64,000 nt of DNA from Flavobacterium sp. CECT 9288 (GTDB lineage: Bacteria > Bacteroidota > Bacteroidia > Flavobacteriales > Flavobacteriaceae): NCBI RefSeq assembly GCF_918731615.1, contig NZ_OU957226.1, positions 1,612,001-1,676,000 of the forward strand. Direction: 5' to 3'. Every line of letters begins with the position of its first letter. Position 1 is the first letter of the stretch. Of the stretch, positions 23,780 to 39,778 are shown piece by piece. A program made the translations under genes and the position numbers. The notes under the pieces were generated by a model. It was not told the origin of the DNA and made no database searches. It saw only the letters and a program-made list of their open reading frames with translations.

Positions 23780-24283
23780 TTATTCCTTTTCCTCCTCTTT
23801 TGAAGGGCTGATTTTTTCTGTATTACCCTGCACTGTCGCACTATTTGTTCTGATTTCAGTATGACGAACTTCTCCTCCTGTTGTACCCGTTTGTTGTGCA
23901 AAAAATACAGCGATGATTGCAACAACTGTCGCGATATAAGAAACTAGATTTGCTTTTGGCTTGTTTTTGAAATTAGAATAAAGGCCAAAAAGAGATGTAA
24001 CCGCTAGCGCATATAAAACAATTGCAAGTTTTTCAGCCATTTCCTCATGTTCATGAATAATTGCTTTTCCTATTCCTGGGAAATCTTCCACTATTTCTTC
24101 TGCTCCTTCACCGGTAGACATGCTAAAAAAGCCAAAAACAGCTGCAACGACAAATAATACATAGGCAGTATTTTGTACCGATTTATTCTTGAGTACTATT
24201 CCAGCGATTAAAATCCCAAGTCCAAGAATTGTTCCAATAATAGGAAAATGGTTTACAACTAGGTGTAAGTGTGCATCATTCAT
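23780..24283 (-). CDS. DUF2231-like four-helix membrane protein
   Basis: A 167-residue protein with four hydrophobic segments (about 12-32, 38-56, 85-102, 110-128). Conserved His and Gly positions (LHLVVNHFPIIG at the start, HEHEEMAEKLA before helix 3, TGTTGGEVRHTEI after helix 4) resemble the DUF2231 group. The C-terminus is charged (EKISPSKEEEKE). It is last in the metal-efflux cluster, 52 bases after the VIT1-family gene. The His-rich outer face could bind metal or heme; function is unknown. Confidence 0.65.
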   Translation of the reverse strand: MNDAHLHLVVNHFPIIGTILGLGILIAGIVLKNKSVQNTAYVLFVVAAVFGFFSMSTGEGAEEIVEDFPGIGKAIIHEHEEMAEKLAIVLYALAVTSLFGLYSNFKNKPKANLVSYIATVVAIIAVFFAQQTGTTGGEVRHTEIRTNSATVQGNTEKISPSKEEEKE

Positions 24284-24335
24284 AATTTTATAGTTTAAGT
24301 TAGTATTTATTAGTGATATTTAATTTTTAAGAGTT

Positions 24336-25454
24336 TTATCCTGCTAAGGAAACGCCAATTAACGAACCAATTCCGTAAGTAACTGCTGCAGCTAACAAAC
24401 CGAAAGCCACTTGTCTGAATCCCGAGAATAAAATGCTTTTTCCTGTCAATAAAGTGATGGCTGCTCCTATGCCAAAAAGCCCTACCACACTGCTTCCGAC
24501 ACTCAATAAAAGAGCATTTTTTCCGTCTAAAAACATAAAAGGATATAATGGAATAATCGCTCCAATTGCAAAGAGCACAAACGATGCTATAGCTGCTTCC
24601 CAGGCTGATCCTCCTAATTCTTCTTTGTCAATTCCTAATTCCTCAATAATAATGGCATCAATCGCTGTTTGCGGATTTTCAAAAGCTTTGTCAGCTAATT
24701 TTTGTGCTTCGACCACATTCATTCCTTTGGCTTGATACAATAAAACCAATTCTTTTTTTTCTTCTTCAGGAGAAGCTTCTAATTCTTCGGTTTCCAAATC
24801 AATTTGGCGCTGGTTTAATTCTCTGGAACTTTGTACCGAAAGCCATTCGCCTAATGCCATTGATATAGCGCCTGCCAGAAGTCCTGCAATTCCGGTTAAC
24901 AATATTGTATCATTAGAAACGGCTGCTCCAGCAACTCCCATGACCAAACTCATATTAGAAACCAATCCATCATTAGATCCTAAAACGGCGGCACGCAAAG
25001 CATTTCCGCCTACGGATTTATGCCTACTCTCAAATTTAGACAACAACCCTCCAGAAACATTTAGAGCAGCATTATTATTTACAGCCTCAATAATATTTAG
25101 GTGATTGTGCTCAAAACCAGTTGGTTTTTCACCCGTTTTAATTTTGTTTCGAACCGAATTTTCGGCAAACTGTTTTTCTATTGAAGACAAGGAACTAATT
25201 ATGGAACTGTATCCAAAAATTTTACCCAACTTCAGTTGAAATTTTGCTCTACCAGATGGCAAAGGCATGTTGAAATTCGGTTCTATGGTACGAACTTTAT
25301 CTAACATGTGTTTGGCGTGTCCCTTCTCGATTTCGCCTAAGCTTAGTAAAACTCTCGAAAGATTTTCATCAGACTGAATGGCGGCAATACTATCGTACAA
25401 AAAGGCCGTATCAACCTCTGTTTGCAACTGATCTTTAAGTTTATTCAAGTCCAT
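24336..25454 (-). CDS. Membrane-bound ferritin-like protein with VIT1/CCC1 transporter domain (MbfA-like)
   Basis: A 372-residue fusion. Residues 1-140 form a ferritin/rubrerythrin-like helical domain (EVDTAFLYDSIA, LGEIEKGHAKHM supply Glu/His ligands). From about residue 150 a VIT1 domain follows: LRAAVLGSNDGLVSNMSLVMGVAGA, then GLLAGAISMALGEWLSVQSSRE, and three more C-terminal helices. MbfA-type proteins export or sequester iron (or manganese) across the inner membrane. It sits 14 bases after the RND adaptor gene, so it is probably co-transcribed with metal efflux. Confidence 0.88.
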   Translation of the reverse strand: MDLNKLKDQLQTEVDTAFLYDSIAAIQSDENLSRVLLSLGEIEKGHAKHMLDKVRTIEPNFNMPLPSGRAKFQLKLGKIFGYSSIISSLSSIEKQFAENSVRNKIKTGEKPTGFEHNHLNIIEAVNNNAALNVSGGLLSKFESRHKSVGGNALRAAVLGSNDGLVSNMSLVMGVAGAAVSNDTILLTGIAGLLAGAISMALGEWLSVQSSRELNQRQIDLETEELEASPEEEKKELVLLYQAKGMNVVEAQKLADKAFENPQTAIDAIIIEELGIDKEELGGSAWEAAIASFVLFAIGAIIPLYPFMFLDGKNALLLSVGSSVVGLFGIGAAITLLTGKSILFSGFRQVAFGLLAAAVTYGIGSLIGVSLAG

Positions 25455-25468
25455 TATTTCATTTTTTA

Positions 25469-26584
25469 TTAATTAACCAAATCAAAAACTCCTTTTGTTA
25501 ATAGTCTTGAAGAAGCAGATATTGTTGTGTTTGGCAGTATTTCGACAAACTTTTCAGACTTCGAACCAACAGTAACACTTACTTTCTGGAACGAATATCC
25601 ATTTTTTTCATTCTTGACTAAAAGTACAAAATTTTTATTGTTTTCTGTCACCAATGCTTCAGCAGGAATCGCTAAACCTTCTTTAGAATCGATAATTATT
25701 TCAGATTCTACAAACATTCCTGTCAAAAGCTTTTGTTTTATGGCATCGTCTAAATGTCCATGAATATTAATCGTCCTGTCGTTTCCTTCAATTGATTTTC
25801 CTACTAAATGTACTTCGGCATTAAACACTTCTTTTGATGCTTCGGGAACTTTAAATTGTATTTTTTGTCCAATTTTCACATTCAAAATATCTTTTTCAAA
25901 AACGGCTAATTCTAAATGCAAGTGATCCGTATCAACAATTTCTAAAATCACATCCGAAGGCGCTACATACATACCTACATTGGCATTCATAATCACAATA
26001 TCACCTGTTATTGGAGAAAAAATGGTGATTGTTGAAGTCAAAATTCCTCTCTCCACATTTCTAGGATTAATATTCAAAAGCAACAATTTGGCTCTTAAAC
26101 TTTGATGCATAGCTTTGGCTCTTTTATAGTCGCTTTCGGCTTTTAAGTAGTTTTTTTGCGAAGTAATTTTTTCATCGTACAAGGTTTTTTGGCGGTCGTA
26201 TTCTGATTTCAAGAAATTCAATTGCTCCGCTACTTCCATATACTCTTTTTGAATATCCAGAAATTCGGTGTTTTGCAAAGTCAATAAAGCTTGACCTTTT
26301 GTGACTCTATTTCCAACCAAAAGCGTTGTCGATTTTACGTAACCACCCATAAAAGTGTTCACTTTAGCTCGGTTTTGTGGCGGTACATCAATATTTCCGG
26401 ATGCTTTTACGGTAACATCAAAATCCTGTTCTGTTGGACTCCCAATCTCCATTCCCGAGGTTTTGAATTGAGTTTCAGATACTGTAATTAAACCGTTATC
26501 TTTTGGTTCTGATTCTTCTGTTTTCGCTTCTTTGCAAGAAAATAAAAAAAGAGATAAAGTAATTATATAGAGTGCGTTTTTCAT
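25469..26584 (-). CDS. RND efflux periplasmic adaptor (CzcB/CusB-like) lipoprotein
   Basis: A 371-residue adaptor with a lipobox (LFLFSC, Cys17). It has a lipoyl half-motif (SGNIDVPPQNRAKV), a long coiled-coil hairpin (about 120-180), a second lipoyl half (IFSPITGDIVIMNANVGMYV), and beta-barrel and membrane-proximal domains. It joins the inner-membrane RND pump to the outer-membrane channel. It starts 10 bases after the pump gene stops, and no separate outer-membrane factor gene follows because that domain is fused to the pump. Confidence 0.92.
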   Translation of the reverse strand: MKNALYIITLSLFLFSCKEAKTEESEPKDNGLITVSETQFKTSGMEIGSPTEQDFDVTVKASGNIDVPPQNRAKVNTFMGGYVKSTTLLVGNRVTKGQALLTLQNTEFLDIQKEYMEVAEQLNFLKSEYDRQKTLYDEKITSQKNYLKAESDYKRAKAMHQSLRAKLLLLNINPRNVERGILTSTITIFSPITGDIVIMNANVGMYVAPSDVILEIVDTDHLHLELAVFEKDILNVKIGQKIQFKVPEASKEVFNAEVHLVGKSIEGNDRTINIHGHLDDAIKQKLLTGMFVESEIIIDSKEGLAIPAEALVTENNKNFVLLVKNEKNGYSFQKVSVTVGSKSEKFVEILPNTTISASSRLLTKGVFDLVN

Positions 26585-26594
26585 TGGTAAAATA

Positions 26595-29500
26595 TTAAAA
26601 ATTGAGGTATTGTAAATCTAATTGGGTTTGGTTGAATTGCAAAATAGTATCTAAATAATCCACTTGAATAGTTGTGGCATTTTCTAGACTTTGGATGTAT
26701 TGAAAGAAATCAATTTCACCATGTTTGTAGCTGTTATTTCCAACTTTTATAATCTCATCCGATAATTTTTTTCCGTATTGATTGTAGTAGTTTATTGCTT
26801 CTTGATGCTTTGCTAATTCATTCTTTTTTTGAGTGATGTACTTCTCTATTTTTGTGGCTTCATTTTGCTTTTGTTGTTCCCAACTTTGCAATTCAAGCTT
26901 TGCTACTTTACTTTTTGCTACTTGTCCTGAGAATAAAATGGGTACCGCAACCCCAACTTGAAAACCATACAACGACTGCGATAATCCATTATTTCTACCT
27001 TGAAAATAATCTAGGTTAATATCCGGAAGCCAATGTTGTTTTTGCAACATAATTTGGCTTTTGTAATTAGATGTAATACTTTCTAAATAAGCAACATATA
27101 TCGCTTTACTTGTTTCATCAATAGAAGATTCTAAGGGTATAATTTTATTGCTTTTTACCACAATTGTTTCATCGTTTTGAAGTAAGGATTGTAACAGTTC
27201 GTATTGTGCTTTTTTGTCATTCTCAATTTGTGAAAGCTTGGTTCTTATTTGCCTAAACTTGGCTTGAGCCGTAATTTTTTCCAGATAATTTGTTTCTCCT
27301 AATTCAAAACGCCTATCGCTGGCTTTGGAGAAATTTTGATACAAACTATCCAAATACTGATAGAGTTTTTCTTGATGTTGCAAATAAACAATGTGCTGAT
27401 ACGATTTGGCTACAGCCAAAGAAAGTTTGTTTTTCTGAATTTCAAAATTTGCTTTTTCCTTTTCATATTCAGATGAAAATACTTTTTTCTGCGCCCCATA
27501 AACCGTTGGGAAAGCAAAACGTTGTTGCACGCCAAAAACACGCAAGGGCAGTTCATTCAATGCCAAATTATTTTGATCGTAACTGTAATAAATATTGGTT
27601 TTATCAAAAGTATTCGCCGATTTGATATTAGCTTTAGTCTTATCCACTTGCAATTGAGCCGCTTTAATTCCTTTATTGTTTTGCATTGCTTTCGACAATA
27701 AATTATCTAATTCTGGATTAGTATTTTGCGAGAAAGCAAATGATGTACTCAACAGTAACAAAATGATAAAAGTAGTAGTTTGATTCTTTTTGAACTTTGC
27801 TTTTTTGAAAGACTGACCTTCAAAAACTTTGTATAAAATAGGCAATACAATCATGGTTAAAATAGTTGCCGTAAACAATCCACCAATAACAACCGTTGCC
27901 AAAGGTCGCTGTACTTCGGCTCCAGCCGAAGATGAAATTGCCATTGGTAAAAATCCTAGTGCGGCAGCAGCTGCAGTCAATAATACCGGACGCAATCTAT
28001 CTGTAGTTCCCTTCAAAATTAATTCATCCATGTCTTTCATTCCTTGATGTTTAAGTTCTTTAAAATGTTCGATTAGGACAATTCCGTTTAAAACTGCAAT
28101 TCCGAAAAGTGCAATGAAACCAACCCCTGCTGAAATACTAAACGGCAAATCACGCAGCCATAAAAACAAAACACCACCAACTGCTGACAACGGAATTGCT
28201 GAATAGACCATTAACGCCTCTTTCACGGATCCAAATGCAAAATACAAAAGGATAAAAATCAAAAATAAAGCGATAGGAACTGCTATCATCAATCGGGCTT
28301 TGGCACTTTGTAAATTCTCAAATTGCCCGCCGTATTTTACGTAATAACCTGCTGGTAATTTGATTTTGTTTTCAACAATTTGCTGAATATCGGTAACTAC
28401 ACTCTGTAAATCACGATTCCTAACGTTGATTCCCACTACAATTCTTCTATTGGTATTATCTCTAGAAATTTTCGCAGGACCTTCAGTATATTCGATCGAA
28501 GCCAACTCGCGCAAGGGAATTTGTTCGCCGTTTGGAGTTGGAACGTATAAATTACGTAAATCCTCAATATCTCGTCGGTTGGTTTGATCCAAACGCACAA
28601 CCATATCAAAACGTTTTTCGCCTTCAAAAACAGTTCCAACGGTTTTTCCGGCAAAGCCAAGGGCAATCATTTCGTTCAAATCAGCAACATTCAACCCATA
28701 ACGGGCAATTTTCGAACGATCATAAACTACGGACATTTGTGGTAAACCTTCCGTTTTTTCGATGATAATATCCGAAGCACCTTCTACTTTTGCAATTGAA
28801 TTTTTAATTTCCTCAGCCTTTTCAGCCAAAATAGTTAGGTCTTCGCCAAAAACTTTAACAGCAACATCAGAACGGGTGCCCGAAATTAATTCGTTGAAAC
28901 GCATTTCTATCGGCTGCGTAAATTCGATTTCCATATTTGGAATTTGATTTTCTAAAGCTTCTTTTATTTTATCTGCCAATTCATCTTTGGTAGCAGCCGA
29001 AGTCCATTCGGATTTTGGTTTTAATTTCACAATGACATCGCTTTCTTCCATAGACATCGGGTCAGTAGGCACTTCAGCAGCACCAATTCTACTCACAACT
29101 TGAGTGACCTCTGGGAAATTTTTAAGGATTATTTTTTCAATTTTTGTAGTAATTGCAATTGTCTTAGTCAATGATGTTCCTGTTTTTAAAACGGGCTGAA
29201 TTACAAAATCGCCTTCGTCAAGAGTAGGAATAAATTCTCCACCCATGGTTGCAAAAAGACCAGCAGCCAGCAGTAATAAACCAAGCGCGCCATATAAAAC
29301 CTTTTTGGTATTGGCTATAGCCCAAGTAATAATAGGAAAATACCAAGAATTCAATTTACGGATTAACCTGCTGGATAATGAATTTGGATTTTCTTCTTTT
29401 GGTTTCAAAAACAATGAAGAAACGACAGGAACGTAGGTAAAACAAAAAATCATAGCGCCTAACAAAGCAAAACTAAACGTCATTGCCATTGGTTTGAACA

Positions 29501-30929
29501 TTTTACCTTCGATTCCGGATAAGGATAAAATTGGAATAAAAACAATTAGAATAATCAATTGGCCAAAAATAGCCGAATTCATCATTTTAGAAGCGCTTTT
29601 ATAGGTGATTTGGTCAATCTCTAACTGGCGTTCTTCCTTACTAAGATTTCCTAAATGAGCTGATTTACTGGCTATTTGGAACGCAATAAATTCGACAATA
29701 ATCACAGCACCATCGATGATAATTCCAAAATCTATCGCACCCAAACTCATTAAATTGGCATCGATTCCAAATATATTCATGAACGAAATGGCAAACAACA
29801 AACATAATGGAATTACAGAGGCCACAACCAAGCCAGAACGCCAATTTCCTAGCAATAGTACCACAACAAAAATTACGATTAAGCATCCTAAAATCAAGTT
29901 TTCGGCAACGGTAAAAGTCGTTTTCCCTACTAACTCGCTTCGTTCTAAAAATCCGTTGATGTAAACTCCCTCAGGAAGTGATTTCTGAATTTCGGTAACT
30001 CTAGTCTTTACATCATCAATAACTTGTTTGGAGTTTCCGCCCTTTAGCATCATGACTTGACCCAAAACTTTTTCACCTTCGCCATTGCCAGTGATGGCAC
30101 CAAAACGATTGGCATGACCGTAACGAATTTGCGCAACATTCTTGATGTAAACCGGCAAACCATTTGTAGTTGTAACCACAATATTGCCGATATCTTCTAG
30201 TGAATTAACTTTACCTTCGCCTCTGATAAAATAACTTTGATTCACTTTTTCAATATAGGCACCGCCTGCAATACTATTGTTTTTTTCCAAAGCGGTGAAA
30301 ACATCAGCGGTAGTAATGTGCATCGCTTTTAAACTCGATGGACTAATTGCAATTTCATATTGTTTTAAAAATCCGCCCCATGTGTTAATTTCCACAACAC
30401 CTTTAATTCCAGATAACTGGCGTTTTACTACCCAATCCTGAATGGTGCGTAAATCTGTTACTGAATAATTATTCTTAAATTCTGGTTTAACTTCTAAAGT
30501 ATATTGATAGATTTCTCCTAGTCCTGTGGTAATTGGACCCATTTCTGGTGTACCAAAACCTTGCGGAATTTTCTCAGAAGCTGTTTTAATTTTCTCTGCG
30601 ATAAGTTGTCTTGGAAGATAGGTTCCTAAATTCTCATCAAAAACAATGGTGACTACAGACAAACCAAATTTAGAAATCGATCGAATTTCCTTTACGCCAG
30701 GCAAATTAGCCATTTCTATTTCAACCGGATAAGTAATAAATTGTTCAATATCTTGTGTAGAAAGATTACGAGAAGTTGTGATTACCTGAACTTGGTTATT
30801 GGTGACATCTGGAACTGCACCAATTGAAATTTGGAAAACAGAAAAGAGACCAAATCCAAAAATTCCGAGTGTGAATAGTAAAACAATGAGTTTGTTTTTT
30901 AAACTGAAAGCAATTATTTTTTCAAGCAT
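26595..30929 (-). CDS. CzcA-type heavy-metal RND pump fused to a TolC-like outer-membrane factor
   Basis: A 1444-residue protein. Residues 1 to about 1035 are an HME-RND pump: 12 membrane helices, the proton-relay motif DFGIIIDGAVIIVE in TM4, a DPMSMEESDV segment, and RFNELISGTRSDVAVKVFGED, closer to CzcA (Zn/Co/Cd) than CusA (Cu/Ag). After a basic linker a second hydrophobic, signal-peptide-like stretch (TTTFIILLLLSTSFAFSQ, near residue 1055) leads into about 390 residues of TolC-type OEP sequence with long coiled coils. The OEP part must reach the outer membrane, so cleavage after the internal signal is inferred. A promoter and direct repeats lie just upstream. Confidence 0.93.
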   Translation of the reverse strand: MLEKIIAFSLKNKLIVLLFTLGIFGFGLFSVFQISIGAVPDVTNNQVQVITTSRNLSTQDIEQFITYPVEIEMANLPGVKEIRSISKFGLSVVTIVFDENLGTYLPRQLIAEKIKTASEKIPQGFGTPEMGPITTGLGEIYQYTLEVKPEFKNNYSVTDLRTIQDWVVKRQLSGIKGVVEINTWGGFLKQYEIAISPSSLKAMHITTADVFTALEKNNSIAGGAYIEKVNQSYFIRGEGKVNSLEDIGNIVVTTTNGLPVYIKNVAQIRYGHANRFGAITGNGEGEKVLGQVMMLKGGNSKQVIDDVKTRVTEIQKSLPEGVYINGFLERSELVGKTTFTVAENLILGCLIVIFVVVLLLGNWRSGLVVASVIPLCLLFAISFMNIFGIDANLMSLGAIDFGIIIDGAVIIVEFIAFQIASKSAHLGNLSKEERQLEIDQITYKSASKMMNSAIFGQLIILIVFIPILSLSGIEGKMFKPMAMTFSFALLGAMIFCFTYVPVVSSLFLKPKEENPNSLSSRLIRKLNSWYFPIITWAIANTKKVLYGALGLLLLAAGLFATMGGEFIPTLDEGDFVIQPVLKTGTSLTKTIAITTKIEKIILKNFPEVTQVVSRIGAAEVPTDPMSMEESDVIVKLKPKSEWTSAATKDELADKIKEALENQIPNMEIEFTQPIEMRFNELISGTRSDVAVKVFGEDLTILAEKAEEIKNSIAKVEGASDIIIEKTEGLPQMSVVYDRSKIARYGLNVADLNEMIALGFAGKTVGTVFEGEKRFDMVVRLDQTNRRDIEDLRNLYVPTPNGEQIPLRELASIEYTEGPAKISRDNTNRRIVVGINVRNRDLQSVVTDIQQIVENKIKLPAGYYVKYGGQFENLQSAKARLMIAVPIALFLIFILLYFAFGSVKEALMVYSAIPLSAVGGVLFLWLRDLPFSISAGVGFIALFGIAVLNGIVLIEHFKELKHQGMKDMDELILKGTTDRLRPVLLTAAAAALGFLPMAISSSAGAEVQRPLATVVIGGLFTATILTMIVLPILYKVFEGQSFKKAKFKKNQTTTFIILLLLSTSFAFSQNTNPELDNLLSKAMQNNKGIKAAQLQVDKTKANIKSANTFDKTNIYYSYDQNNLALNELPLRVFGVQQRFAFPTVYGAQKKVFSSEYEKEKANFEIQKNKLSLAVAKSYQHIVYLQHQEKLYQYLDSLYQNFSKASDRRFELGETNYLEKITAQAKFRQIRTKLSQIENDKKAQYELLQSLLQNDETIVVKSNKIIPLESSIDETSKAIYVAYLESITSNYKSQIMLQKQHWLPDINLDYFQGRNNGLSQSLYGFQVGVAVPILFSGQVAKSKVAKLELQSWEQQKQNEATKIEKYITQKKNELAKHQEAINYYNQYGKKLSDEIIKVGNNSYKHGEIDFFQYIQSLENATTIQVDYLDTILQFNQTQLDLQYLNF

Positions 30930-30949
30930 TTTAATCTTTTTTTATACCT

Positions 30950-30995
30950 CAAAAGTAAGGTTTAAAGATAGGTATTTCCTTAAGAACTACTTAAG
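30950..30995 (-). promoter_or_regulatory. Internal promoter and probable response-regulator operator of the RND pump gene
   Basis: On the minus strand TACTTTTG (30950-30957) lies 20 bases before the pump ATG. Twenty-one bases upstream of it is CTTAAGTAGTTCTTAAG (30979-30995), two CTTAAG copies 11 bases apart, the spacing typical of OmpR-class response-regulator sites. The site overlaps the last codons of the kinase gene. Regulation by the adjacent regulator is inferred. Confidence 0.55.
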
Positions 30996-32381
30996 GTGTG
31001 CTTCAAATAATCTTAAAATTATCGTAGTTCCTTTGTTTTCTTGACTGCTAATTGCAATATCAATGTTCAGTAAAGTACATAGTCTTTTTACAATAGAAAG
31101 TCCTAAACCGGTGCCTTTAATTTCGGGATGACTACTGGATTGAGATCTGTAAAATTGATTAAAAATTTTATCTACATCTTCGGCAGGAATTCCTATCCCA
31201 GTATCACTAATTTGGCATTCAATTATAGAGTCAACTTCTTTCAAAACTACTGTCAAGTTTCCGTTTTGATTCGAATATTTTAAAGCGTTCGATATTAAAT
31301 TATTAATTACAATCGAAAATAAATACCCATCTGTTTCTGTGTAATATTCTGCCGAAAAATTGGTAATAACATTGATTTTCTTGCTTTGAATAATTGCTGA
31401 AAATCGAGAAATAGTGTCTAAAAACAAGGCGTTTAAATATACTTTTTCTGTTTTTAATGTCTGTTTTTGATTTTCAAAACGAGCTAATAATAACAATTGA
31501 TCTACTAAGTTATTCAAGCGGTTTACTTCGTTGACACAAAAGTTTATTTTTTCGGTATATTCAGCGTGTTCTCTCGGTTTTCTGATCAAAACTTCGAGTG
31601 TTCCTTTGATAACTGTTAGTGGAGTTCTGAGTTCATGCGATGCATCAGAAGTGAATTGTTTTTCTCGTTCTACAGCAGTTTCAATGCGGTCCAACAAATT
31701 ATTTATTGTTTGCGATAAAACATATAATTCATCTTTTTGAAAAGGCAATACAATTCGCGAAGTCAAATTGTCTTTTGTAATATCGTTTGAAGTAGTAATG
31801 ATGGAACTAATTGGCTTTATAAAGCGACCAGCAATAAAACGAGCCAGAAAAAAAAGTACTAATAAAATTAGAGGATAAGTAATAATCAATACTTTGGAGA
31901 TATTATCAAGAACCATCGTAGCATCTTCAAGCGACATAGCAACGATTAAATATCCAATAATTTTAGATTTATTGTAAATGGGAACTTGCATCTGCCTGAT
32001 GGCGCTATTGGCTAGAACATCATCATAAAGTACATTTGAAACATGCTTAGGATCAAAAGACAAAGTCATATTTTTAAGATTTGGTGACTTTTCAATTAAT
32101 TTTCCATCTTGATCAATAAATTGAATAAAAACAGGATTCACATCAAGTGTGTTGTGTTCGCGTTCCTTCCATTCCTCTTTATGAGTCAAATGAAATGAAT
32201 TGCCAACGACTTCGATTTCGGTTAAATGCTTGTCTGCCTCGCTTTTAATATCAGTGTTGACATGATTGTAGACACTAAATTTTACGATTGAATAGATAAT
32301 ACAAAACACCACAAAAATCAATAAAGCAGTGGTGACAATATAATTGAAAGCAATTCTATTTTTAAATGAAAGTTGTTGCAT
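30987..32381 (-). CDS. Sensor histidine kinase of a metal-type two-component system
   Basis: A 464-residue membrane kinase. Two membrane helices (about 11-33 and 170-192) frame a 135-residue periplasmic sensor rich in His/Glu (THKEEWKEREHNT). A HAMP linker precedes HisKA (SDASHELRTPLTVIKG, phospho-His near residue 248), and HATPase motifs follow (NLISNALKYSN, DTGIGIP, GTGLGLSIV). The layout is that of CusS/CzcS. It lies 6 bases after the response regulator gene and directly precedes the RND pump gene, so metal sensing is the likely job. Confidence 0.9.
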   Translation of the reverse strand: MQQLSFKNRIAFNYIVTTALLIFVVFCIIYSIVKFSVYNHVNTDIKSEADKHLTEIEVVGNSFHLTHKEEWKEREHNTLDVNPVFIQFIDQDGKLIEKSPNLKNMTLSFDPKHVSNVLYDDVLANSAIRQMQVPIYNKSKIIGYLIVAMSLEDATMVLDNISKVLIITYPLILLVLFFLARFIAGRFIKPISSIITTSNDITKDNLTSRIVLPFQKDELYVLSQTINNLLDRIETAVEREKQFTSDASHELRTPLTVIKGTLEVLIRKPREHAEYTEKINFCVNEVNRLNNLVDQLLLLARFENQKQTLKTEKVYLNALFLDTISRFSAIIQSKKINVITNFSAEYYTETDGYLFSIVINNLISNALKYSNQNGNLTVVLKEVDSIIECQISDTGIGIPAEDVDKIFNQFYRSQSSSHPEIKGTGLGLSIVKRLCTLLNIDIAISSQENKGTTIILRLFEAHLK

Positions 32382-32387
32382 TTTTAT

Positions 32388-33050
32388 TTAATCATTAGCG
32401 ATATAGCCTACTCCACGAATAGTTTTTATATTGTCTTGTTCTAATTTTAAATTCAGTTTTTTACGAATTGCATTCATAAAAACATCAATAACACCAGTGT
32501 CATATTCAAAATGAATGTCCCAAACATCTTCAATAATTTGTGTTCTGGTACAAACTTTACCTTTATTTTTAATTAAATATGTCAAAAGCTCAAATTCCCG
32601 TTGTGTAAAGGCAACTTCCGCATTGTTTACTAAAACCCTATGCTGCGCTAAGTCAATTGTTATGCTTCCTAAAGTGAGTTTTGTAATCTCACCTTGATTC
32701 CTAAAATGGATCTTGATTCGTTCTAATAATTCATCAAAACTAAAAGGTTTTTTGATATAATCATTGGCTCCTGCTTTCAACCCCTCAATAGTTTCTTGAA
32801 CCGTATCTTTAGCAGTTAAAAAAATAATGGGTGTAGTATTATTTTTTAACCGAATGGCTTTGCACAACTCTAAACCTGTCATTTTGGGCAACATCCAATC
32901 TAATAAAATGAGGTCAAAATTTTCCTTTTGGATTTTCTCAAATGCAAGACTCCCATCAGCAGCGCTGCTCACGGTATAGCCTTCTTCTTCTAATCCTTGT
33001 TTCAAAAACTGAATAATCCCAGCCTCATCCTCTACAATTAATAAGTGCAT
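32388..33050 (-). CDS. OmpR-family response regulator
   Basis: A 220-residue regulator. The receiver domain has acidic residues at the start (VEDEAG), the phospho-acceptor Asp in LILLDWMLPKM (about residue 51) and a conserved Lys in YIKKPFSF. The C-terminal winged helix (FTQREFELLTYL, IEDVWDI, VDVFMNAIRKKL) binds DNA, usually at tandem sites 11 bases apart. It is paired with the kinase and lies 25 bases after the DUF3570 gene. Likely target sites are at 30979-30995 and 36206-36250. Confidence 0.92.
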   Translation of the reverse strand: MHLLIVEDEAGIIQFLKQGLEEEGYTVSSAADGSLAFEKIQKENFDLILLDWMLPKMTGLELCKAIRLKNNTTPIIFLTAKDTVQETIEGLKAGANDYIKKPFSFDELLERIKIHFRNQGEITKLTLGSITIDLAQHRVLVNNAEVAFTQREFELLTYLIKNKGKVCTRTQIIEDVWDIHFEYDTGVIDVFMNAIRKKLNLKLEQDNIKTIRGVGYIAND

Positions 33051-33075
33051 GTTTCTTTTTTTGTAAAATTAAGCT

Positions 33076-34452
33076 TTATTGCATTATAAATTTAAATGCA
33101 ACGGTTGCAATATCGGCTGTAAGATTATCACTTCGTTTGTAATGATTGAATCTAAAATCAATATTTTTCAATCCAAATTTCCAAACTTTTGCAACTGTGA
33201 AAATATCGGTATAATTCACTCCAAAACCATATTGATTGGCATCAAAAGTAGCTAAATCAGCGTCTGACGTATAAAATTTTTCAGTTGACAAATGGGTTTC
33301 GTAAGGCGCATAATATTTAGACTGTGTTTGTGTATAATACCTATACATTGGAAAAACCGTAAACTTATCCGTCAGTTTTACCGGAACTTCAATACTCGCG
33401 GTATGCGATTGTATGTCCCAATTATCTGAATAATAGCGGTAATAGGTTCGCAAAGCAACACGTTCATTTACATAATAATTCAATCGTGCTCCAATTGGAA
33501 GTTTAAAACGATTATCAGGCAATCGCTCAATATCATCGGCTAATTGATACGTTCCTTTATTGTTTTCATTGGTATAATTAGCAATAAATTGCGGCTGCCC
33601 TACATAAAAGTTTGCTTTATCAGCAAAATACATTCTGTGATACGGTGAGGATAAAAGTCCTTGTTGTTGCAACACATCAAAGAAAAATGAAACTTGTAAT
33701 TTCTTGGTTAAAACCTGTGAAAATCCAAATGAAGCCGAAAATGAATTCCTATTAACTGCAGTAACTGGCTTAAAAGCACTCGGTAAATAAGCTGTCGAAG
33801 CTTGTCCGTTTTGATCCCAAATAGTTCTACCATTGAAAATACCTTGACTTAAAAAATTATTTCCATTACCATCAAAATCTGATAATTCTTTTGGGTAAAT
33901 AGGTCTCCATTGGTCCAAATAGGCATTCACTTTTACGCTAAGCTCTGTGTTTTTTTCATTGAACAAACGTGCTACTCCACCACCTACTCCAACGGAAGTG
34001 TAATCATACTCATTAGAAAAAGATACATCTCCGTTCCAAATAAGATCTCGTGAATCACTACTATGGCTGTAATTAGCTACGATAGATGTAAGCTGATCGC
34101 TCTGTGATGCACCTGAAGAGGCTTGCCAAGGCGTACCGTTGGTCGTATCGTACGGATTGATATTACTTGAGGAAGCTGACGAGTAAGCCGAAATACCCAA
34201 ATCAATAGTTAAAACATCATCATCATTTAATGGCATTGCCACTACAATATTTGAAGCTACATCAGTAAGTTTTTCAGAACCAAGCCCACCTGAAACAGCC
34301 GATCTTGAACCATCTTGCGTATAGTAACTTGCCAAAAAATCAACTTCGGTAGTTTCTAATACGCGCTTTTTAAATGCAGGTTCCTTGGCTGTATCTTGTG
34401 CAAATGCAGTTGCTGTACCAATAAGCAAGAGTGCTATAATTTTTATCTTCAT
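33076..34452 (-). CDS. DUF3570 predicted outer-membrane beta-barrel protein
   Basis: A 458-residue protein from MKIKIIALLL, giving a signal peptide ending AFAQ; a non-canonical extension to 34479 was dropped. The rest is alternating aromatic/polar strands (VDFLASYYTQDGSRSA, YYVNERVALRTYYRYYSDNW), a final strand TVAFKFIMQ, and no cytoplasmic features, all consistent with an outer-membrane barrel. I recognise it as DUF3570. It follows the DUF4266 gene by 39 bases; these families recur together with ApbE and thioredoxin genes. No biochemical role is known to me. Confidence 0.82.
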   Translation of the reverse strand: MKIKIIALLLIGTATAFAQDTAKEPAFKKRVLETTEVDFLASYYTQDGSRSAVSGGLGSEKLTDVASNIVVAMPLNDDDVLTIDLGISAYSSASSSNINPYDTTNGTPWQASSGASQSDQLTSIVANYSHSSDSRDLIWNGDVSFSNEYDYTSVGVGGGVARLFNEKNTELSVKVNAYLDQWRPIYPKELSDFDGNGNNFLSQGIFNGRTIWDQNGQASTAYLPSAFKPVTAVNRNSFSASFGFSQVLTKKLQVSFFFDVLQQQGLLSSPYHRMYFADKANFYVGQPQFIANYTNENNKGTYQLADDIERLPDNRFKLPIGARLNYYVNERVALRTYYRYYSDNWDIQSHTASIEVPVKLTDKFTVFPMYRYYTQTQSKYYAPYETHLSTEKFYTSDADLATFDANQYGFGVNYTDIFTVAKVWKFGLKNIDFRFNHYKRSDNLTADIATVAFKFIMQ

Positions 34453-34491
34453 TTTTAATTGAATTGCTATTAAAGTCAAATATTTGCAAGG

Positions 34492-34704
34492 TTAGTTGCA
34501 ACCACAGCCACCACCTGATTTACCACCATTCGCTCCAGCTGAAGCTTCACGATATACTTGAAAAGAAGTTTCATAACGTTCTGCCGTTCTTGCTGATAGC
34601 TTCATATCAGGATCGTTAATTTTTTCTTTTTCATATTCCTTTACGGAGCTACAAGATTGCAAAACAAACAATCCTACTAGTATTAATCCTAATTTCTTTA
34701 TCAT
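34492..34704 (-). CDS. DUF4266 small lipoprotein with a C-terminal GGGCGCN motif
   Basis: A 70-residue protein with a lipobox (VLQSC, Cys18). After lipidation only about 52 residues remain: a charged helix (KEYEKEKINDPDMKL) and a glycine-rich tail with two Cys (SGGGCGCN). The two C-terminal Cys could bind metal or exchange disulfides with the neighbouring thioredoxin. The gene is 11 bases downstream of apbE and upstream of DUF3570, the usual order for this family. Function unknown. Confidence 0.82.
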   Translation of the reverse strand: MIKKLGLILVGLFVLQSCSSVKEYEKEKINDPDMKLSARTAERYETSFQVYREASAGANGGKSGGGCGCN

Positions 34705-34715
34705 CGCACTACTAT

Positions 34716-35702
34716 TTAATTGATTGCATTTTTGGTATCTATTCCTTTTGAGGAATGAACTTTACCCGTATCATCTACAATGATGCACTCTACTCCTTTT
34801 ATTTGATTGACTAAATCCAAACCAACGTCTACTCCAAGCACAAAAATTCCTGTAGCTAAGGCATCTGCAATTTCTGTTTGCTTTGCAAATACAGACACAC
34901 TTACAATTCCCGTGGCAGGATAACCAGTTCTTGGATCAATGATGTGTGAGTATCTTTTGCCATTAAAAACAACAAATTTCTCGTAGTTTCCTGAAGTCTC
35001 CACCGCACTATCGGTTAGTGGAAAAGTGGCGAAAATTTTATTTCTATTTACGGGATTTACAATTCCTACTGTCCATGGTTTCCCGTCAGGTTGCTTTCCC
35101 CACGCATTTATATCACCTGAAACATTTATGATTCCTGACAAACATCCTTTAGAAAATAATAAACTCTTTATTTTGTCGGCTATGTACCCTTGTCCTATTC
35201 CTCCTAATCCTAACTTCATTCCTTCTAATTTCAGAAAAATGGTCTGCTCTTTAGGATCTAATATGATGTTTTGATAGCCAATTTTTTCTACTGATTTTTT
35301 AATGGCTTCTTCAGTAGGCATTACTTTCATTGTCCCGTCAAACTTCCAGATTTTATCCATCGAAGCATACGAAATATCAAAAGCTCCATTGGTTAACTTC
35401 GAAATTTTTATAGCTCTTTCGACCAATTCAAAAACTTCTTTGTCCACTTTAACTGGCTTAATACCCGCATTTTTATTGACTTGAGAAATTTGAGTGGTGG
35501 GAATCCAATCTGAGATTAAGTTCTCTATTCGTTTTGATTCGGCTATAGCCAAATCTATATAAACGTTGGCGGAAATTGTATCTTTTGCAACGGCAGTAAC
35601 CTCAAATGGGCTCCCTAACATAAACAACTTGCGTTTGTGAATGATTTGTGACTGTGCCGAAAGACTACAAATAACTGCTATTAAAAAGGCTATCTTTTTC
35701 AT
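34716..35702 (-). CDS. apbE: FAD:protein FMN transferase ApbE
   Basis: A 328-residue exported enzyme with a signal peptide (1-18, ending SAQSQ). ApbE motifs are intact: DISYASMDKIWKFDG, LGGIGQGYIADKI, INVSGDINAWGKQPDG, ETSGNYEKF, YSHIIDPRTGYPA and the metal-site ADALATGIFVLG. It transfers FMN from FAD to Ser/Thr of extracytosolic proteins. Its ATG overlaps the thioredoxin TGA (ATGA). The flavin acceptor is not obvious among its neighbours: none shows a complete D-x-x-S/T-G-A-S/T site. Confidence 0.93.
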   Translation of the reverse strand: MKKIAFLIAVICSLSAQSQIIHKRKLFMLGSPFEVTAVAKDTISANVYIDLAIAESKRIENLISDWIPTTQISQVNKNAGIKPVKVDKEVFELVERAIKISKLTNGAFDISYASMDKIWKFDGTMKVMPTEEAIKKSVEKIGYQNIILDPKEQTIFLKLEGMKLGLGGIGQGYIADKIKSLLFSKGCLSGIINVSGDINAWGKQPDGKPWTVGIVNPVNRNKIFATFPLTDSAVETSGNYEKFVVFNGKRYSHIIDPRTGYPATGIVSVSVFAKQTEIADALATGIFVLGVDVGLDLVNQIKGVECIIVDDTGKVHSSKGIDTKNAIN

Positions 35703-36136
35703 TTTTGTTCGAAAGAATGAATCAATTGAATATACTCTTGTGGACTCACGTTTTTATAACCACTAATTCCTAATATTGAACCTGCAGGATTTAACAACAG
35801 TACCAGCGGAAAATTTCCTGCTTTGTTGTATTGCTCAGCTAACTTTTTATTGCTTTCGGTTAATTCTGCTGGCAATAAATTGGCTTTTTTCTTTGGAAAA
35901 TCCGCTTTGTAAATCACCCATTTTTGAGCAGATTCACTTTTAAACTCTTCCGATTGCCAAATGGTTTTGTCTAATTTTATACAAGGAGCACACCAATCCG
36001 ATCCTGAGAAAACTAAAAGTATGTTTTTGTTCTCGGCAGCAGCTTGAGCTTTTGCTTCGGTAAAAGATGTTTTCCAGCTTTGTGAAAAACCTATTGTTCC
36101 TATCATGAGGAATAAAAAAATAATGGATTTCTTCAT
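35699..36136 (-). CDS. Secreted thioredoxin-fold protein
   Basis: A 145-residue protein with a signal peptide (1-18, ending GFSQS). The thioredoxin active site is SDWCAPCIKLD (Cys pair near residues 47 and 50), and the cis-Pro segment is GNFPLVLLLNP. It should reduce or oxidise thiols in the periplasm. It is the first gene of the ten-gene metal/redox cluster, overlapping apbE by 4 bases. A likely partner is the Cys-containing tail of the DUF4266 lipoprotein, which is inference. Confidence 0.9.
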   Translation of the reverse strand: MKKSIIFLFLMIGTIGFSQSWKTSFTEAKAQAAAENKNILLVFSGSDWCAPCIKLDKTIWQSEEFKSESAQKWVIYKADFPKKKANLLPAELTESNKKLAEQYNKAGNFPLVLLLNPAGSILGISGYKNVSPQEYIQLIHSFEQK

Positions 36137-36205: not shown

Positions 36206-36250
36206 CTTAAGTTAATATTAATTTAGCGAGCAACATTAAGCAAATCTTAA
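36206..36250. promoter_or_regulatory. Tandem TTAA-type repeats between the thioredoxin and LTA-synthase-like genes
   Basis: On the minus strand TTAAGATTTGCTTAATG (36234-36250) and TTAATATTAACTTAAG (within 36206-36221) each contain TTAA motifs 11 bases apart, like the CTTAAG pair upstream of the RND pump gene. They may be response-regulator sites for the thioredoxin operon or the divergent gene. The region is AT-rich, so chance is not excluded, and no full TAnnTTTG box was found here. Confidence 0.35.
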
Positions 36251-36295
36251 AATATCAATGTTTTAACTACCGTTACATTTTCCGAAAAAAGAATT

Positions 36296-38483: not shown

Positions 38484-38912
38484 ATGGAAGAATACACGAA
38501 TTATGTAAAGCGCACCCAGCGAGATAACAGCATGTCCTTAAAACTTCAAATCGTTAGAGAAGTTGAGCAAGGTAGTTCATCAATTACCCAAATTAGAAAA
38601 CAATATGGCATTCAAAGCCATGCTACAGTTCTGGGCTGGTTACGAAAATTTGGTAACTTTGATTGGGAAAACCAACCCCCTTTGAATATGGCAAAGTCAC
38701 CCGAACAAAAAATTATGGAACTTGAAGTCCAAGTCAAGCTATTAGAAAAACAAAAGGCTCTTTTAGAACGACAAGCTTACGTTGCAGATAAAAAAGCAAT
38801 CTTGTTTGACATGATGATTGATTTAGCTGAGAAAGAATATCATATAGATATCCGAAAAAACTCTGCACCCGAACAATCGCCCGCTTTAGAGCAAAAGAAC
38901 AAAAAACAGTAG
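38484..38912 (+). CDS. IS3-family transposase OrfA (HTH protein)
   Basis: A 142-residue protein. The HTH (about residues 15-60: KLQIVREVEQGSSSITQIRKQYG, HATVLGWLRKFG) binds the IS ends and is followed by a leucine-zipper-like coiled coil (MELEVQVKLLEKQKALLE). The slippery heptamer at 38855-38861 falls 17 codons before its stop, so a fraction of ribosomes should shift to frame -1 and make the OrfAB transposase. Confidence 0.9.
   Translation: MEEYTNYVKRTQRDNSMSLKLQIVREVEQGSSSITQIRKQYGIQSHATVLGWLRKFGNFDWENQPPLNMAKSPEQKIMELEVQVKLLEKQKALLERQAYVADKKAILFDMMIDLAEKEYHIDIRKNSAPEQSPALEQKNKKQ
38855..38861 (+). other. Programmed -1 frameshift site of the IS3 element
   Basis: The heptamer A-AAA-AAC is in the OrfA frame (Arg-Lys-Asn), and the -1 frame is open from 38831 onward with no stop until 39778. 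Slipping here joins OrfA to OrfB as ...RKK-LCTRT.... This is the standard IS3 arrangement; the shift itself is inferred. Confidence 0.75.
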
Positions 38913-38926
38913 CGTTTACCTGTTAT

Positions 38927-39778
38927 TTGTTCGGGATAGACAGACAGGTTTATTATCGAAAGACTAGAAGAATAGCATCCAAACAAAACAAAGCCAAAGA
39001 AGTGATTTTGATGGTGAATAATATCAGGAAGACAATGCCTAGAATAGGTACTCGAAAACTATATTATCTTTTGTTTGATAAACTTCAATTAATGAAAATT
39101 GGAAGAGATAAGTTCTTTGATATACTCAGAGCCAATCATTTATTGATACATCCTAAACGAAGTTATCATGTAACGACTAACTCACATCATCGATTTAATA
39201 AACATCAAAATCGAATTCTAGATTTAGAAATTAACAGACCAGAGCAAGTTTGGGTCTCTGATATAACCTATATAGGAAAAAGAGATAATCCTTGCTATTT
39301 AAGCTTAGTCACAGATGCTTATTCTAAAAAGATTATGGGATATTATGTTGCCGATAACATGAACACAGAAAGCAGTTTGAAGGCTTTTAAAATGGCTCTT
39401 AAACACAGAAACAACAAAAACTTACCATTGATACATCATTCAGACAGAGGGATTCAATATTGTGCTAATGACTACCAAATGCAACTTAATAAAAATAAAA
39501 TTCTATGCAGTATGACACAAAACTCTGACCCTTATGAAAATGCAGTGGCAGAAAGGATCAATGGTATTTTAAAACAGGAATTTAGGATTGACAAATACAA
39601 TCAAAAAGCAGAAATCATGCAAAAAATTGTAAAAGAAGCTATTGATATCTATAATGAAATCAGACCTCATTATTCTAATTACATGCTTACTCCAAATCAG
39701 ATGCATCACCAAAACAAAATTAAAATGAGAACCTATAAAACAAAAAACAGTAGCAAACCAGAGCTTGCTACTGTCTAA
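38927..39778 (+). CDS. IS3-family transposase OrfB (DDE integrase)
   Basis: A 283-residue catalytic part counted from a TTG; the frame is open from 38831, so it is probably made as an OrfAB fusion. An HTH_21 segment (RKTMPRIGTRKLYYLL) precedes the rve domain with the DDE triad: Asp in VWVSDITYIG, Asp in HHSDRGIQYC and Glu in NAVAERINGILKQEF. The C-terminus (EIRPHYSNYMLTPNQMH) is typical. It appears intact. Confidence 0.92.
   Translation: MFGIDRQVYYRKTRRIASKQNKAKEVILMVNNIRKTMPRIGTRKLYYLLFDKLQLMKIGRDKFFDILRANHLLIHPKRSYHVTTNSHHRFNKHQNRILDLEINRPEQVWVSDITYIGKRDNPCYLSLVTDAYSKKIMGYYVADNMNTESSLKAFKMALKHRNNKNLPLIHHSDRGIQYCANDYQMQLNKNKILCSMTQNSDPYENAVAERINGILKQEFRIDKYNQKAEIMQKIVKEAIDIYNEIRPHYSNYMLTPNQMHHQNKIKMRTYKTKNSSKPELATV

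Follow-up and report, generated by a model that had tools for sequence, protein, structure and literature searches.

A ten-gene Flavobacterium cluster with the same operator-like box before its flavinylation module and its metal-efflux pump

We examined a 64,000-nucleotide stretch of DNA from Flavobacterium sp. CECT 9288 (positions 1612001-1676000 of contig NZ_OU957226.1 in a genome of 3.70 Mb; the window below). In it lies a cluster of ten genes in which a redox half (thioredoxin, ApbE, DUF4266 and DUF3570) adjoins a metal half made of a two-component sensor, an RND efflux pump with its adaptor, a VIT transporter and a DUF2231-like gene. The gene content of this cluster, its recurrent linkage, a box shared by its two halves, the predicted barrel fold of DUF3570 and the conservation of motifs were all computed here. 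We consider it likely that the ten genes form one co-regulated unit. With moderate confidence we lean towards reading this unit as a metal-stress regulon of the cell envelope, one arm of which serves efflux and the other electron transfer at the outer membrane.

Layout of the cluster and the shared box

The ten open reading frames (ORFs) all lie on the minus strand, from 36136 down to 23780, and the ORF list and Pfam bore out the order given in an earlier note on this DNA: thioredoxin, ApbE, DUF4266, DUF3570, response regulator, sensor kinase, RND pump, adaptor, VIT and DUF2231-like. The thioredoxin and ApbE genes share the 4-bp ATGA overlap that had been described. Taking the ATG at 34452 as the DUF3570 start (the ORF list has a TTG at 34479), the following gaps are 11 bp (ApbE/DUF4266), 39 bp (DUF4266/DUF3570), 25 bp (DUF3570/regulator), 6 bp (regulator/kinase), 57 bp (kinase/pump), 10 bp (pump/adaptor), 14 bp (adaptor/VIT) and 52 bp (VIT/DUF2231-like). 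The largest is just above the 'about 50' bases that the note had allowed.

We observed that the same operator-like box precedes both halves. Upstream of the thioredoxin gene are box 1a, TTTAAGATTTGCTTAAT (36235..36251, minus strand), and a looser match, box 1b, ATTAATATTAACTTAAG (36206..36222, minus strand). Box 2, CTTAAGTAGTTCTTAAG (30979..30995, minus strand), lies across the kinase stop and the gap upstream of the pump and stands at the same place in related loci. Each box is a direct repeat of the CTTAAG-N5-CTTAAG type whose period is 11 bp. The thioredoxin-upstream box was kept while its flanks drift in 56 of the 64 loci that carry the regulator (window included), and was found in only 2/11 related loci lacking the regulator and 2/69 distant loci. 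A box of the same kind was seen in 44 of 51 gaps between kinase and pump, namely 32/39 directly before the pump and 12/12 before a small gene (C20) described below, and 40 of 50 loci had it at both places.

When the spacer was varied from 0 to 12, the period-11 form was present in 38/64 and 39/52 regions, and any other spacer in at most five. The pattern YTTAAKN5CTTAAK has seven distinct sites in the genome, two of them within the cluster. Perfect copies (CTTAAGN5CTTAAG) number eight in the window genome and six related ones together (24.6 Mb by their listed sizes), and all eight fall inside the cluster, as judged by coordinates and identical sequence. Of two genomes without the regulator at the locus, one had no perfect copy and the other a single one, which its coordinates place away from the locus.

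Direct repeats are bound by many OmpR-family regulators, according to the consulted part of PMC7380067, and the response regulator of the cluster would be the candidate for binding the CTTAAG-type boxes. Since the same box stands before both halves, one metal-type sensor probably controls both. The earlier note had also raised the matter of promoters that would split the halves; an internal box does lie at the kinase/pump junction, yet it is of the same kind as the thioredoxin box and so ties the halves together. The ten genes may form a single operon that has another promoter at this junction.

Scans for other signals gave little. A terminator scan placed a terminator-like site at none of the minus-strand junctions of the cluster, and the sigma-70-type promoter and terminator scan as a whole was not above shuffled sequence (57 vs 54.5 and 8 vs 9.5). 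The Bacteroidota-type promoter pattern TTG/TAnnTTTG gave seven overlapping matches at four places (1.4 expected), none of them before thioredoxin; the single non-coding match is before the his leader that follows the cluster. Rfam at the gathering threshold returned zero matches over 14000-42000.

Recurrence in related and distant loci

The earlier note had proposed a search of Bacteroidota genomes for conserved synteny. The arrangement recurs well beyond chance, in related loci and, in rearranged form, in distant ones. The window is Flavobacterium-like, and its DUF3570 protein is 99% identical to its counterparts in F. erciyesense and F. turcicum. Our related set comprised 80 named loci, 67 of which extend for 11 kb or more from the start of DUF3570. 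These loci end at a 10-kb flank, and a pump, VIT or DUF2231 gene displaced by an insertion was counted as absent. Thioredoxin, ApbE and DUF4266 were each present in 65/67, the response regulator and the kinase each in 58/67, the pump and the adaptor each in 50/67, and the DUF2231-like gene in 59/67. A ferritin-type VIT was present in 27/67 and any VIT in 42/67; some loci have a VIT without the ferritin-like part. All ten genes, with the ferritin-type VIT, were found together in 24/67. The segment from the kinase to the DUF2231-like gene is variable, in that the pump or the VIT is missing in some related loci, and the pump belongs to another clade in three (L021, L055, L082).

Two kinds of extra gene were seen in these loci. 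A cation-diffusion-facilitator gene (PF01545) is inserted in nine, for instance between regulator and kinase at L039:12116-13000. C20 encodes a small secreted-looking protein of about 125-132 amino acids (aa) with a middle rich in histidine and acidic residues (L092:1441-1839, L038:13578-13955); two representatives had no Pfam match. It follows the kinase in 12 named loci and is found in several distant ones, mostly before the RND gene. Three records of the set (L027, L028, L032), titled as Klebsiella pneumoniae, Rhizobium and Chryseobacterium metagenome-assembled genomes, carry Flavobacterium-like clusters with DUF3570 identities of 66-72%, and their names look doubtful.

DUF3570 was found in 54 of 396 genomes of the class and 120 of 299 of the family. 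The distant set of 80 was made up of 40 from outside the window's family, where 51 places had matched and the 11 with the lowest scores were dropped, plus 40 of the 124 places within the family, mostly the best-scoring; genes in the loci were called with a simple longest-ORF caller, and RND and VIT neighbours were counted by eye. An RND gene was present within 10 kb of DUF3570 in 12/80 distant loci, where pump number and genome size predict 0.90, and in the same contiguous run as the module in 8/80. In 11 of the 12 cases it shares the strand of the module and lies upstream of it, whereas the RND gene of the window is downstream. VIT was beside DUF3570 in 6/80 (0.27 expected).

As a control we used FMN_bind, another ApbE substrate. 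Among the matches listed (76 genomes), 0/79 FMN_bind places were within 10 kb of an RND gene, against 12/80 for DUF3570 (Fisher p 3e-4, a test that treats the loci as independent although they are not). Since 27 of the 76 genomes lack FMN_bind, the comparison was also restricted to the 49 that have it, where an RND gene was nearby in 6/49 vs 0/79 (p 0.003, with the same assumption). This comparison was made by eye, with at most eight candidates scored per genome and a few low-scoring RND places missing.

When 73 RND proteins were placed in a tree, the pumps associated with the module fell into two or more separate clades, with L102 apart on a long branch, and required at least seven label changes on well-supported branches. 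The tree is a quick one with SH-aLRT support only, and holds three long rows (L204, L102, L205), of which L204 was checked and is in frame. As the gene order differs and the pumps belong to separate clades, the link between module and RND pump arose, was lost or was reshuffled more than once.

A search of plasmids for DUF3570 gave two, both from Hymenobacter. The one of Hymenobacter sp. DG25B (L219) has the four-gene redox module, in which DUF3570 is split into two annotated ORFs; about 3 kb off on the opposite strand are an RND pump, adaptor and channel together with a kinase and a regulator. The second has no RND, kinase or regulator annotated within the stretch examined.

Predicted properties of the two halves

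The four genes of the redox half are contiguous, and their Pfam matches are all above cut-off. The first (35699..36136, minus strand) encodes a secreted thioredoxin-like protein (PF13899; Thioredoxin_7, 49.9 bits) with a WCAPC active site at 35981-35995, whose W48-C49-A50-P51-C52 is kept in at least 90% of 76 sequences. It is followed by ApbE (34716..35702, minus strand; 279 bits), an FAD:protein FMN transferase (FAD, flavin adenine dinucleotide; FMN, flavin mononucleotide) whose N-terminus resembles a Sec signal by eye; the majority of its solved relatives are named FMN transferases. DUF4266 (PF14086; 34492..34704, minus strand; 71 bits) is a small putative lipoprotein with an LQSC lipobox by eye and the C-terminus GGGCGCN. 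Its CxC motif (C67-G-C69) lies at 34498-34506, and C18, C67 and C69 are kept in at least 90% of 74 sequences. The only DsbD_TM match in the genome is at 2.034 Mb, about 0.39 Mb from the cluster, and there is no DsbD inside it. A Rieske-domain protein (PF00355 in the two representatives scanned, L156:13305-13748 and L022:7738-8181) is a possible extra electron carrier elsewhere; genes of this Rieske-type cluster occur within the thioredoxin run in 19/80 distant loci, directly before thioredoxin in 17, and have a counterpart in nine named related loci.

DUF3570 (PF12094; 33076..34452, minus strand; 123 bits) is the predicted flavin carrier. Its structure model, with 16 strands of at least 7 residues and a mean confidence (pLDDT) of 87.6, matches the PgaA, OmpG and CymA barrels across nearly the whole mature chain, and the protein is thus predicted to be a 16-strand outer-membrane beta-barrel; its outer-membrane location and periplasmic termini are assumed by analogy. 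Two FMN motifs, S91-S92-A93-S94 and S113-G114-A115-S116, map to the loop between strands 3 and 4 (34102..34179, minus strand), with residue 91 just before it. SGAS at 113-116 fits [S/T]GA[S/T] exactly; SSAS at 91-94 is a variant, and in a motif survey [ST]SAS stood at this first position in 157/163 sequences. S94 and S116 are invariant among 78 sequences. Both attachment serines are predicted to sit on the extracellular side in the model. A DUF3570 homologue of Chlorobium luteolum is flavinylated on two sites (PMC8238504, as far as consulted), and by analogy the window protein would carry FMN too. Two loci, L051 and L056, have two DUF3570 genes each.

In the metal half, the sensor pair consists of an OmpR-family response regulator (32388..33050, minus strand; Response_reg and Trans_reg_C) and a histidine kinase (30987..32381, minus strand; HisKA and HATPase_c). 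Their top-scoring NCBIfam families are cztR_silR_copR (TIGR01387, 202.7 bits) and cztS_silS_copS (TIGR01386, 220.5 bits), both under the cut-offs of 279.2 and 292.55. The pump gene (26595..30929, minus strand) encodes a CzcA/CusA-family RND protein fused to an OEP channel domain, at 1185.7 bits for TIGR00914 (cut-off 701.45). The 1444-aa chain matches ACR_tran with 912 bits and OEP with 73 bits, a length that is not unusual for this pump class, in which open frames of about 1,440-1,500 aa were often seen when at most two candidates per genome were scored. CzcA/CusA HME-RND pumps carry a charged D..D..E motif in transmembrane helix 4 (TM4), and the window pump has it as DFG..D..E at 29691-29732 (D400, D406, E413). 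As this motif was present in 33/33 associated pumps and also in 39-40/40 others, the pump class does not name the metal. The Cu/Ag site of CusA is formed by Met573, Met623 and Met672; the window pump lacks these methionines, the aligned residues, read by eye, being Q578, E629 and E680. Another CzcA-type pump at 0.71 Mb adjoins what looks like a Fur-like gene, with no strict box within the 14 kb examined there.

The remaining genes are an RND periplasmic adaptor (25469..26584, minus strand; HlyD_D23, 113 bits), a VIT1 transporter (24336..25454, minus strand; 228 bits) and a DUF2231-like membrane protein (23780..24283, minus strand). The N-terminal part of the VIT protein, a putative ferritin-like domain, has no Pfam match and a weak profile match to encapsulated ferritin (E 0.026); its E13 / E43xxH46 pattern is invariant in 16 sequences. 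The DUF2231-like protein scored 20.3 bits, under the curated cut-off of 26.4, and is predicted to be a four-helix bundle (pLDDT 80.8) with invariant H5, H7, H12, H79 and H141. Its model gave no Foldseek match at E <= 0.001, and VIA-align returned mostly generic helical bundles. A heme or metal role for the histidines was considered and is backed by no result; a literature search for DUF2231/NHFP gave off-topic matches only.

Beyond the cluster, the stretch 23686-23560 on the minus strand, which separates it from a hisG-like gene, holds a histidine-operon leader peptide, MFTIQLHHHHFHYCSQAMC, and after it a hairpin of the attenuator type that folds strongly (fold z -7.0) and had no Rfam match at the gathering threshold. 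Close upstream of the cluster, at 38484-39778 on the plus strand, two ORFs resemble an IS3-family transposase pair.

Proposed mechanism, rival explanations and known systems

On the metal-stress reading, the kinase would sense excess periplasmic metal, and the response regulator would bind the 11-bp-period CTTAAG-type repeats before thioredoxin and pump and raise both arms. The fused CzcA-type pump and its adaptor, plus VIT where present, would expel divalent metal. In the other arm, ApbE would attach two FMN groups to DUF3570, and electrons would probably pass from DsbD, encoded elsewhere, to the thioredoxin WCAPC, the DUF4266 CxC and then the two DUF3570 flavins. The flavin loop would face the cell surface or the barrel lumen, where it could reduce a metal, or some other acceptor, at the outer membrane or beyond it. 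The order of electron transfer, the membrane topology and the acceptor are our inferences. That DUF3570 is a surface metal reductase is possible, though less likely than not. Equally tentative is the idea of a flavin conduit, a porin-like barrel with two covalent FMN at its outer mouth that would discharge electrons at the cell surface. Under the control of a metal-sensing two-component system, it would alter the redox state of a toxic metal outside the cell, and the pump, induced at the same time, would export this metal, so that outer-membrane electron transfer would be coupled to efflux. The earlier note had suggested a flavin-linked metal reductase feeding efflux, and no result here supports either the reductase or the feeding. 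Should the metal-stress reading be true, the operator shared with a metal pump would give a testable inducer, phenotype and regulator. The flavinylated barrel would be a cytochrome-free electron route across the outer membrane and would make a gene set that is common in Bacteroidota, but unexplained, accessible to experiment.

Several observations weigh against this reading. The thioredoxin-upstream sites number 70 against 1.8 in shuffles, a contrast that is flattered because the box motif was derived from the same loci; the weight therefore lies on the controls with varied spacers, with loci lacking the regulator and with whole genomes. The final kinase codons are overlapped by box 2, and there is no box where DUF2231 directly follows the kinase (0/6) and one in 1/4 where VIT follows. 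VIT is the variable part of the cluster, and in 6/67 related loci the regulator, kinase, RND, VIT and DUF2231 genes were all missing from the examined stretch. A redox-inert metal such as Zn would need no flavin arm, and the DUF3570 flavin loop was modelled with low confidence (pLDDT below 50 for residues 112-116). The Flavobacterium loci are also related by descent and often occupy one and the same site in the chromosome (in 35/80 a hisG-like gene follows), and 68/80 distant four-gene modules have no RND gene within 10 kb, which means that the redox arm also occurs on its own, with no pump nearby. These last two points would suit a pair of separate modules lying side by side with no shared task, the regulator box of the metal module having been copied before thioredoxin. 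We regard this as improbable, since the RND linkage recurs in a different order and with separate pump clades, the FMN_bind control had none, and the box precedes both halves in most of the loci compared. The earlier claim of one metal-responsive system is partly backed, by the shared box and by the rearranged co-occurrence elsewhere; it is corrected in that the redox genes are a published flavinylation module and VIT is a variable member.

The main rival is thiol or protein repair, in which a DsbD-thioredoxin-CxC chain would protect envelope proteins under metal stress, the DUF3570 flavin serving as electron sink or sensor and no metal being reduced. The strong conservation of the thioredoxin and CxC motifs agrees with it, the Rieske-type genes of distant runs suggest a more general redox chain, and the pump motif is of the divalent type, for a possibly redox-inert metal. 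A purely periplasmic repair is hard to square with both predicted FMN serines on the extracellular-side loop, and the VIT and RND neighbours point at metals; we think it unlikely, if worth keeping in view. Far less probable is iron assimilation, with the flavin arm reducing ferric iron for uptake by VIT1. VIT proteins are regarded as exporters of ferrous iron from the cytosol, and the neighbour here is an efflux pump. The consulted part of PMC4902296 likewise calls an mbfA mutant defective in iron export. In favour of assimilation are the distant loci with VIT beside DUF3570, and the 25 VIT1-bearing clusters that Meheust et al. 2021 took as a hint of it (PMC8238504, as far as consulted).

The same study, in the part consulted, describes clusters of ApbE, DUF3570, PF13899 thioredoxin and DUF4266, with DsbD in 285 clusters and absent from 316. 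The redox half belongs to this published module, so the point to be tested here was its association with a sensor and an efflux pump. The terms 'efflux' and 'CusA' are absent from the main text of PMC8238504. A search of titles and abstract openings gave no paper on the linkage of module and RND, and DUF3570/DUF4266 occurred in a single one of the papers searched; the models in the consulted part of PMC11334425 do not name DUF3570. The consulted part of PMC8238504 does not contain the link of the module to RND efflux, to two-component sensing and to a shared operator.

The window cluster resembles the 'DsbD systems' of Meheust et al. in its four genes, its two FMN motifs, the C-terminal CxC of DUF4266 and an unlinked DsbD, and differs in that an RND pump, a two-component system and a shared box go with it, and in its predicted DUF3570 barrel. 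With CzcA/CusA operons and their CzcRS/CusRS systems it has in common a TIGR00914 pump, an adaptor, an OmpR-family regulator, a kinase and a divalent-type TM4; here, however, the pump is fused to its channel, the regulator and kinase are under the family cut-offs, and the box also precedes the flavin arm. MbfA and Er-VIT1 are iron exporters, and the window gene shares with them a VIT1 domain behind an N-terminal putative ferritin-like domain, although this latter part is weakly supported by sequence. Mtr-type porin-cytochrome conduits span the outer membrane. The ten genes hold no cytochrome, and their cofactor would be a covalent FMN in a barrel loop; as in the Mtr conduits, electrons could cross the outer membrane by way of a barrel and its redox cofactors.

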